Shown: one piece after another, positions 49,443 to 52,174 of the stretch | Position numbering within the stretch: position 1 is the first letter of the stretch | Layout of the letters: each line of letters starts with the position of its first letter | Assembly: GCF_029338355.1 (NCBI RefSeq) | Contig: NZ_CP119802.1 | Coordinates: 2,108,001-2,172,000 of the forward strand | DNA: 64,000 nucleotides | Direction: 5' to 3' | DNA from: Halosegnis marinus | GTDB lineage: Archaea; Halobacteriota; Halobacteria; Halobacteriales; Haloarculaceae | The notes under the pieces: generated by a model | Database searches by the model: none | Told to the model about the DNA's origin: nothing | Seen by the model: only the letters and a program-made list of their open reading frames with translations | Made by a program: the position numbers and the translations under genes

Positions 49443-50624
49443 GTGGTGCCGGTAGTGCTCGTCGCCGTCGTCGTGACCGTGCTCGGCCTGTTGGCCGTCT
49501 CGCTCGTCACCCAACTGTTCGGGTACCGGCTCGCCGGCACCATCTCGATTCCCGTGCTCGCCGTGTACACCCTCAAGAACGCGGTCACGCTTCCGGTGTC
49601 CGTTCTCAGCGCGGTCATCGCGTTCGTCGGCCTCTCCGTGCTGAAGGACCGGACGCTCGTGTACGGGCGCGACGAACTGCTCGCGGCCATCGCCATCGGC
49701 GCGGCTGTCCCGCTCGGCATCCTGCTCCTCTTCGACCAGTTCGTCCCGGGGAGCCTCCGGGCCGTGCTGTTCATCGGCAGCATCCTCCCCGGCCTCGCGG
49801 CGTACAACTACCACCAGCTGAAGCCCGAGTACCGCAAGTGGGACCTGCTCGTCTCCGTCCTGCTGTTCTGCGTCCTGTTCGGGCTCGGCTACCTGCTCGT
49901 CTCGCCGGGCCTCCGCCCCCTCCTCGGCGACCTGTTCCCCCCGACGCTGTACGCCGCGACCGCCGACGTGGCGAACTGGCGCGACGCCGTCGTCGCCTCG
50001 GAGCTCCAGCCGGTCGTGCTCGGCCGGCCGGTGACCGTCGTGCTGTTCGGCGCGGCGATGGTCGCCTCCGAGGTCGTCCGGGACCGCTACGACGTGCGGG
50101 TCGGCGTCATCGCCGTGGGCCTGCTCGCGCTGTACGCGCTCGCCTCCGTCTGGCTGCTCGTCCTCTACGCCGTCGTCATCGTCGTCACCTACGCCGTCGT
50201 CCACCTGCTCCACCGCCGGACGCTGTTGTACGGCCGCGTCCTCATCGGCATCGCCGGCGCGTTCGCGCTCCTGCTCGCGCTCCCGACCGTGCTCGCGCTC
50301 CCGGTTCAGCGCGGTCTCTCGGCGTACTTCGTCGCGCTCGTCGCGGGCATCAACGCCTACAACGTCCACGTCACCGCGAGCCGCTACCGCCGGCTGGTAC
50401 CGTTCCTCCAGGTCGCGGCGTTCCTGCCGCTGTTGGCCGCCGCGCGGCTCGTCTCCCGCCCGCTCCCGCGGGGAATCCCGCAGGAACTGACCCCGGTCGT
50501 CGTGGTCGTCGGGGCGCTGCTCACGCTCGCGTGTCTCGCCGTCGCGGAGCGGGCCACCGTCCGGCGACCGAGCGAGGAGGCGGTGTATCGCGACTCCGTC
50601 CTCTCCGGGGGTGGTGACGCGTGA
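49443..50624 (+). CDS. Poly-gamma-glutamate synthesis protein CapC/PgsC-like
   Basis: About 393 residues from GTG 49443 (GTG 49446 or 49455 are also possible; a TATA-like CTTATTAG at 49425 favours a start near 49455). The first 140 residues match the PgsC/CapC pattern LFGYRLAGTISIPVLAVYTL, KDRTLVYGRDELLAAIAIG; the protein continues with further helices and appears to contain a second CapC-like unit (HRRTLLYGRVLIGIAGAFAL), making it about twice the bacterial length. Membrane part of a poly-gamma-glutamate polymerase; TGATG overlap couples it to the Mur-ligase-like gene. Confidence 0.78.
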   Translation: MVPVVLVAVVVTVLGLLAVSLVTQLFGYRLAGTISIPVLAVYTLKNAVTLPVSVLSAVIAFVGLSVLKDRTLVYGRDELLAAIAIGAAVPLGILLLFDQFVPGSLRAVLFIGSILPGLAAYNYHQLKPEYRKWDLLVSVLLFCVLFGLGYLLVSPGLRPLLGDLFPPTLYAATADVANWRDAVVASELQPVVLGRPVTVVLFGAAMVASEVVRDRYDVRVGVIAVGLLALYALASVWLLVLYAVVIVVTYAVVHLLHRRTLLYGRVLIGIAGAFALLLALPTVLALPVQRGLSAYFVALVAGINAYNVHVTASRYRRLVPFLQVAAFLPLLAAARLVSRPLPRGIPQELTPVVVVVGALLTLACLAVAERATVRRPSEEAVYRDSVLSGGGDA

Positions 50625-52174
50625 TGGACGCCGCCGCGTTCGAGGTGCTCGGTACGGCGGAGGGGTGGCACTGGCGACTCCGCGACGGCGAGACGGTGCT
50701 CGCCGTCTCCCCCGAGCACTACCCCGACCACGCCGACGCCCGCGAGCACGTGGACCGGGTGCGGGCGGACCTCGCCCGGCTCACCGGCGAGGAGTACGTC
50801 GATACGGACGTCGAGGCGCACGTCCCCGAGTTCCGCCTCGTCGACCACGGCCCGTACCACGAGTGGACCCTCGTCGACGAGGGCGAACTGCTCGCGGAAC
50901 CCCCGGCGACCTACCCGACCGCCGCCGCCGCGGCCGAGGCGATGGCGCGCGTCCAGCGGCTCGCGGTCGGCGCGCTCCCGGTGTACTTCGCCGGCACGAC
51001 CGAGGAGGCGGGGCGCGACCCCTTCCCCGTCGGGACGCCGGCCGCGCTCGCGAAGGCCGCCCGCTCGCTCCTCTCCCGCGGCCCGCGCCACCGGCGCTAC
51101 CTCGACAGCGCGGAAACGCGCATCGTCGTGATGGGTATCCGCGGGAAGTCCTCGACCACGCGGCGCGTCGGCGACGTGTTCGACCGCCGCGGCTACGACA
51201 CGCTCGTGAAGATAACCGGGAACCGCCCCCACCTGATACACAACGGCGACCCGGTGCCCATCGACCGGCGGGGGCCGCGCGTGACGCTGTACGAGAACAT
51301 CAAGACGTTCTGGCGGTTCCTCCCCGTGCTGGACGAGTACTCGCCCGACGACGTGGTCGTCTTCGAGAACCAGGGCATCACGGAGTACACGACGCGGCTG
51401 GTGAACGAGCGGTTCGTCCGCCCGCACGTCGTGTTGCTCACCAACATCCGACAGGACCACCAGGACACCCTCGGGAAGACGCGCGCGGACATCGCGCGGA
51501 GCTTCGCCCGCGCGGTGCCGCCGGACACCCACGTCATCAGCGGCGAACAGCACCCCGTGCTCTCCGACTACCTCCGCCGCGAGATAGAGCACGCCGGCGC
51601 GACGTTCCAGCAGGTGTCGGTCCCCGAGGCCGACCGCGGGAGAATCGGCGCCGAGACGGTCCACGCGGTGGACGAACTCCTGACCTACCTCGGCGAGCCG
51701 TCGCTGCCGGCGGACGAACTCGACGCCGCGCTCGCGGCCATCCAGCCGCGCTGGACGCGGCTGCCGCGCGGCCGCGTCTACAACGCCGCCGAAGTGAACG
51801 ACGTGGAGAGCACCGAGGCGGCCCGCCGCGCGCTCGCCGGGGAGGACACGGTCTCGCCGTTCCTCTACCTCCGCGCCGACCGGCGCGCCCGGACGGCCTC
51901 CTTCGCGACCTACCTCGACACGCTGTACGAGCGCGACCTCGTGGAGAACGTCCACGTCGCCGGCGACGACACCCGGACGTTCGCCCGGGAGACGGCGGTG
52001 CCGGTCGTGCGCCACGGTCCCGACGAGGCCGCGGCCGACGTGCTCGACGCCGTGCTGGACGAGGGGTACCCCGTCGTGTTGATGGGGAACACCGTCGCGG
52101 ACTTCATGCGCGACCTCGAAGCGGAGATAGCGGCCCGCGCGGCGCGGGCCGAGTACGAGCTGTCGGCCGAGTAG
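50624..52174 (+). CDS. CapB-like Mur ligase with N-terminal DUF1508-like pair
   Basis: 516 residues from ATG 50624. Residues about 1-60 (FEVLGTAEGWHWRLRDGE) and 65-120 (FRLVDHGPYHEWTLVDEGE) look like two tandem DUF1508/YegP-type small domains. From about 165 a CapB/PgsB Mur ligase core follows: GIRGKSSTTR (P-loop), VFENQGITEY and LTNIRQDHQDTLGKTR. This enzyme should activate glutamate (or a related amino acid) with ATP and extend a gamma-linked chain. I see no CapA or CapD homologue adjoining, so export and anchoring must differ or lie elsewhere. The DUF1508-like extension is not part of bacterial CapB as I know it. Confidence 0.8.
   Translation: MDAAAFEVLGTAEGWHWRLRDGETVLAVSPEHYPDHADAREHVDRVRADLARLTGEEYVDTDVEAHVPEFRLVDHGPYHEWTLVDEGELLAEPPATYPTAAAAAEAMARVQRLAVGALPVYFAGTTEEAGRDPFPVGTPAALAKAARSLLSRGPRHRRYLDSAETRIVVMGIRGKSSTTRRVGDVFDRRGYDTLVKITGNRPHLIHNGDPVPIDRRGPRVTLYENIKTFWRFLPVLDEYSPDDVVVFENQGITEYTTRLVNERFVRPHVVLLTNIRQDHQDTLGKTRADIARSFARAVPPDTHVISGEQHPVLSDYLRREIEHAGATFQQVSVPEADRGRIGAETVHAVDELLTYLGEPSLPADELDAALAAIQPRWTRLPRGRVYNAAEVNDVESTEAARRALAGEDTVSPFLYLRADRRARTASFATYLDTLYERDLVENVHVAGDDTRTFARETAVPVVRHGPDEAAADVLDAVLDEGYPVVLMGNTVADFMRDLEAEIAARAARAEYELSAE

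Follow-up and report, generated by a model that had tools for sequence, protein, structure and literature searches.

Tandem DUF1508 domains precede the Mur-type ligase of a capC-capB locus in Halosegnis marinus

The capC-capB locus

The window, the whole 64,000-nucleotide stretch of Halosegnis marinus DNA that we analyzed, carries on its forward strand a double-length capC (pgsC) gene (49455-50624) followed by a gene for a CapB/PgsB-like ligase of 516 aa with N-terminal tandem DUF1508 domains (50624-52174), the latter recognized by its open reading frame and profile matches. The capB gene is intact (516 codons), and its ATG overlaps the stop codon of capC (TGATG), a stop-start overlap found both in the window and in relatives. 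The reading frame of capC is open from before 49440, and the GTG at 49455 falls in an alignment column with Met in 90% of relatives; CapC probably starts at this codon, with a length of 389 aa. A frame or start artefact was ruled out for the N-terminal extension of CapB by the open frame, the overlap with capC, the selection on the extension and the conservation of the start in relatives.

On the other strand, a gene for SRP19 with a Gar1-like gene and then a creatininase gene lie upstream of capC, and genes for a PGF-CTERM periplasmic binding protein and then a FecCD permease lie downstream of capB (Pfam). The preliminary description had reported a double-length CapC with neither CapA nor CapD beside CapB, and this was borne out: no CapA, CapD or poly-gamma-glutamate (PGA) hydrolase adjoins capC-capB, and no other gene of the system is adjacent. 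The H. marinus genome contains one capC-capB locus. Searches of this genome gave no match to CapA/PgsA (PF09587) or to an Asp/Glu racemase and found no PGA hydrolase, and its single gamma-glutamyltransferase is encoded far from capC-capB.

The N-terminus of CapB consists of two DUF1508 repeats

The N-terminus had been read as two DUF1508-like domains joined to the ligase, and profile searches placed both repeats in DUF1508. The Pfam model PF07411 (DUF1508) matched residues 1-129 at 30 bits in two stretches and the whole CapB at 24.4 bits, above the gathering cut-off of 22. When scanned singly, repeat 1 (residues ~2-57; 50627-50794; core FEV..GWHWRL) and repeat 2 (residues ~67-119; 50822-50980; core HEWTLVDEGELLA) reached 17.1 and 16.7 bits, respectively, both below this cut-off, which was also missed by the relatives scanned whole. 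Because single repeats and whole relatives fall under the cut-off, the fusion is easily overlooked; in public records the fusions are annotated as "Mur ligase family protein" or "hypothetical protein".

We built repeat profiles from 24 homologous repeats and searched them separately against all PDB sequences. The results showed that HVO_2922 of Haloferax volcanii (6q2z) was the first match of the repeat 1 profile (E 9.4e-6) and the sole match of the repeat 2 profile (E 1.7e-5), and a profile of both repeats together found 6q2z at E 4.7e-5. A plain phmmer search of the PDB with the whole CapB gave no match, a limit of sensitivity that was overcome by the profiles. With hhalign, repeats 1 and 2 aligned to stand-alone haloarchaeal DUF1508 proteins at probabilities of 96.8% and 96.6%, respectively, and to each other at 97.5%.

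The AlphaFold model of CapB shows two successive strand-strand-strand-helix units (pLDDT mostly 87-96), then a linker predicted to be flexible (residues ~123-152; 50990-51079), with pLDDT below 50 at residues 123-142 and 144-152, and then the ligase. A fold search with the whole model listed only Mur/FolC-type ligases, the list being filled by the ligase part. Within the CapB extension, W15, W17, W81 and L83 are invariant and the DUF1508 core is kept, whereas the NGNIIADSGEGY loop (NG(N)II-D-GEGY), conserved in 11 haloarchaeal stand-alone DUF1508 proteins, is absent from both CapB repeats. Since the hydrophobic core is kept and the loop of the stand-alone proteins is lost, these results suggest that the CapB pair has retained the fold and acquired a new surface.

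DUF1508-like repeats also occur in haloarchaeal membrane proteins of 933-985 aa (L161:1650-4451(-), L162:675-3632(+), L163:1747-4656(-), L164:2156-4963(-) and L165:1607-4468(-)), which have hydrophobic segments near the N-terminus and ~8-11 tandem repeats spaced ~58 residues apart. Among DUF1508 proteins, others of this multi-repeat membrane kind match the CapB extension best.

The ligase region resembles PgsB, and CapC is internally duplicated

The region of the Mur/FolC-type amide ligase (residues ~155-508; 51086-52147) matched the PgsB model TIGR04012 at 76.2 bits (E 2e-21), below the curated cut-off of 222.7 bits. It contains the ATP-binding motif GIRGKS at residues 171-176 within a Mur-type ligase fold, the P-loop motif described for Bacillus PgsB (PMC6029982), and shares this and other ligase motifs with PgsB. 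The fold search returned FolC (1w7k, Z 22.9) and a pseudomurein ligase (7tzi, Z 22.7). By its sequence, the window CapB is a homologue of PgsB outside the curated TIGR04012 equivalog and a candidate for working like it.

We then compared the N-terminus with bacterial proteins, covering the TIGR04012 profile, plasmid-borne pgsB matches and WOR-3 loci. The TIGR04012 model was matched only from its position 20, and bacterial pgsB matches to the window CapB begin at residue 155 or later. The extension is thus not shared with bacterial CapB in the TIGR04012 profile or the plasmid-borne pgsB matches, whose alignments begin after it, and the earlier statement that the architecture is unlike that of bacterial CapB holds. 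In B. subtilis PgsB, residues 1-23 form a hydrophobic N-terminal segment directly before the ligase (PMC6029982). Four bacterial PgsBs (Corynebacterium, Chroococcidiopsis, Streptomyces and WOR-3) have KD19 values of 1.69-2.51 in this segment, whereas the window CapB lacks the hydrophobic helix (KD19 0.12 in the first 45 residues). None of the archaeal CapBs compared has a hydrophobic N-terminus (KD19 of the first 45 residues ≤0.81, except for a truncated gene at 1.25).

CapC matched PF14102 at 99.7 bits (gathering score 27) in two stretches, and its halves align to each other (E 5e-4). Its AlphaFold model is all-helical (pLDDT 88), and a fold search with this model gave no meaningful structural match. 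CapC is double-length beside haloarchaeal CapB, fused or unfused, wherever capC is intact, apart from one gene split in two, and double CapC also occurs in the bacteria Corynebacterium glyciniphilum and Chroococcidiopsis thermalis. We therefore rejected the double CapC as a special feature of the locus. In the split case (L097:4677-5974), a pair of neighboring genes encodes parts of 232 and 199 aa. In another archaeal family (L194:5045-6746 and L195:5020-6719), CapC is of single length (156-159 aa) and the accompanying CapB is short and distant.

Distribution, origin and locus partners of the fused capB

Only part of the haloarchaeal CapBs carry the extension. Of 391 Halobacteria genomes, ~28 have a full-length fused capB and ~46 have unfused capB, both forms occurring together in 2 genomes (counts taken by reading profile match ranges). 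The four genomes of the window's congeners have neither form. Among named loci, the fused form occurs in Haloferax, Halorubrum, Natrinema, Natronomonas, Halobellus and others, and in the methanogens Methanohalophilus and Methanococcoides; among plasmid pgsB matches, a fused capB is plasmid-borne seven times. Among 112 Methanosarcinaceae genomes from 14 genera, 11 genomes from 3 genera encode a CapB ligase, and 8 of the ligase matches are full-length with DUF1508 at the start. We found no description of a DUF1508-CapB fusion in the open literature on DUF1508, YegP and PGA in haloarchaea and methanogens. The combination is real, occurs in about two dozen haloarchaea as well as in some methanogens, and has apparently not been described before.

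In a phylogeny based on the ligase region, a one-time origin of the fusion was not rejected (p-AU 0.31), and the short CapBs L089, L091 and L125 fall among the fused ones. The data are compatible with a single origin and one loss or a sister line; the three short CapBs may be such losses or the sister line. All fused CapBs share one architecture. Pairwise dN/dS was 0.03-0.37 for the extension and 0.05-0.14 for the ligase. The extension is under purifying selection and diverges faster than the ligase, with an N-terminal identity of relatives to the window of 27-43%. In the halophilic archaeon J07HX64 (L087:5671-7068), the DUF1508 part of capB is broken, and the linker and ligase remain.

The partners at these loci vary. 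Halorubrum lacusprofundi and H. aquaticum carry fused capB in a capA-capC-capB operon, which in H. lacusprofundi ATCC 49239 lies on pHLAC01. One clade of fused loci (L071-L074, L076, L077, L079-L081 and L084), with Haloferax prahovense and Halohasta salina among its members, has a receiver-only response regulator gene directly upstream of capC, at 34-109 bp and usually beside a PAS/GAF histidine kinase gene; no receiver gene adjoins capC in the window or in the other fused clades (L066-L070, L078, L085, L086 and the methanogens). At one Methanosarcinaceae locus (L187:8782-11783(-), genus g124), capC is preceded upstream by a LolA-like gene and three genes that match nothing in Pfam. A transposase-like 558-aa gene beside some loci was rejected as a system component by its match to PF01609.

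Discussion

Our preferred reading, in which we place about even confidence, is that capC-capB encodes a synthase of L-poly-gamma-glutamate in which the DUF1508 pair takes the place of a membrane anchor, docking the ligase either to CapC or to itself. CapB, as a Mur/FolC-type ATP-dependent ligase, would add glutamate, probably the L form, through gamma-amide bonds; the internally duplicated CapC would be the membrane component by which the chain exits. The tandem DUF1508 on its flexible linker would take the position that a hydrophobic N-terminal helix occupies in bacterial PgsB and act as a protein-protein adaptor, holding the soluble ligase at CapC or making CapB dimerize, and would be neither catalytic nor a source of new ligase specificity. 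A synthase is indicated by the complete Mur-ligase fold, the PgsB profile match with its GIRGKS P-loop, the stop-start overlap with capC, and the PGA context in relatives (CapA in Halorubrum operons, PGA hydrolase beside unfused relatives, and Natrialba aegyptia, which is reported to make gamma-L-PGA (PMC5751247) and carries unfused CapB homologues). B. subtilis with pgsBC alone, without PgsA, produced 26 g/L PGA with 95% L (PMC6029982), and the window genome gave no racemase match. Because the pair occupies the position of the PgsB helix and appears to keep its fold with a new surface, we favor an adaptor; a core retained while the NGNIIADSGEGY loop is lost would be expected of a module kept for fold and packing. 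Against the preferred reading stand the TIGR04012 score of only 76 of the required 222.7 bits and the unfused archaeal CapBs; since these also lack an anchor, DUF1508 is not needed as an anchor replacement in general.

The main rival, which we consider unlikely, is that the pair is a regulatory input: sensing of a ligand, or binding of a regulator such as the single-domain response regulator whose gene lies upstream in many fused loci, would switch the ligase. The receiver gene of one fused clade and the flexible linker, which would suit a regulatory arm, are consistent with this, but DUF1508 is also kept under selection in the window and in those fused clades that have no receiver beside capC. 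A broader proposal is that the fused enzymes are gamma-polyglutamate synthases of a distinct archaeal class, the DUF1508 pair serving as an anchoring or switching arm of the ligase that is addressed by a two-component receiver in some lineages. We hold this only tentatively and think it somewhat improbable; if true, it would give DUF1508 its first defined role and reveal a post-translationally controlled polymer synthase common to haloarchaea and halophilic methanogens.

The preliminary description had suggested that, given the fusion, the double CapC and the missing CapA and CapD, a different or differently placed gamma-linked polymer could be made. A gamma-linked product different from plain PGA, or attachment to another acceptor, with DUF1508 binding the acceptor or the chain, would fit the ligase identity of only ~40-57% to unfused haloarchaeal CapB, the absence of CapA, PGA hydrolase and racemase from the window genome, and the LolA-like protein gene near a methanogen locus. 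However, the double CapC is general in haloarchaea, and the ligase has its P-loop and other motifs in common with PgsB. The missing CapA does not tell of the product, because PgsBC without PgsA makes L-rich PGA (PMC6029982) and some fused loci, as in Halorubrum, have CapA; we rejected it as a sign of another polymer. The fusion alone does not show a different polymer, and we regard this explanation as doubtful. It is equally doubtful that the DUF1508 part aids solubility or folding in the high-salt cytoplasm with no specific partner: all archaea in which the fused form was seen here are halophilic or marine, and its extension diverges faster than the ligase, but unfused CapBs function at the same salt with no DUF1508, and the extension is under strong selection in one architecture across all fused CapBs.

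To our knowledge, DUF1508 is widespread and structurally solved and has no established function, and its fusion, maintained by selection, to an enzyme whose product can be defined offers a testable handle on it. Archaeal polyglutamate synthases comprise at least two lines, fused and unfused, and the fused line reaches halophilic methanogens, from which we know of no described polyglutamate. Archaeal and bacterial synthases differ in how the ligase meets the membrane.

Among known systems, HVO_2922 and YegP (DUF1508, UPF0339; 6q2z, 2k8e and 3bid) resemble each CapB repeat in sequence profile and core motif, but are small stand-alone proteins with the NGNIIADSGEGY loop that the CapB repeats lack. 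FolC, the pseudomurein ligase pMurE and cyanophycin synthetase share the ligase fold (Z 20-23) and differ from the window CapB in substrates and N-terminal domains. The unfused haloarchaeal CapBs (Natrialba aegyptia, Haloquadratum) likewise adjoin a double CapC and lack an N-terminal anchor, but have no DUF1508; a PGA-hydrolase-like gene (PF05908) accompanies unfused capB in 12 loci and was seen beside none of the fused genes examined. Bacterial PgsB/CapB (B. subtilis, Corynebacterium glyciniphilum) shares with the window CapB the GIRGKS P-loop, the Mur-type ligase region and the adjoining CapC, whereas it has a hydrophobic N-terminal helix before the P-loop and no DUF1508, the window CapB being the opposite in both respects.
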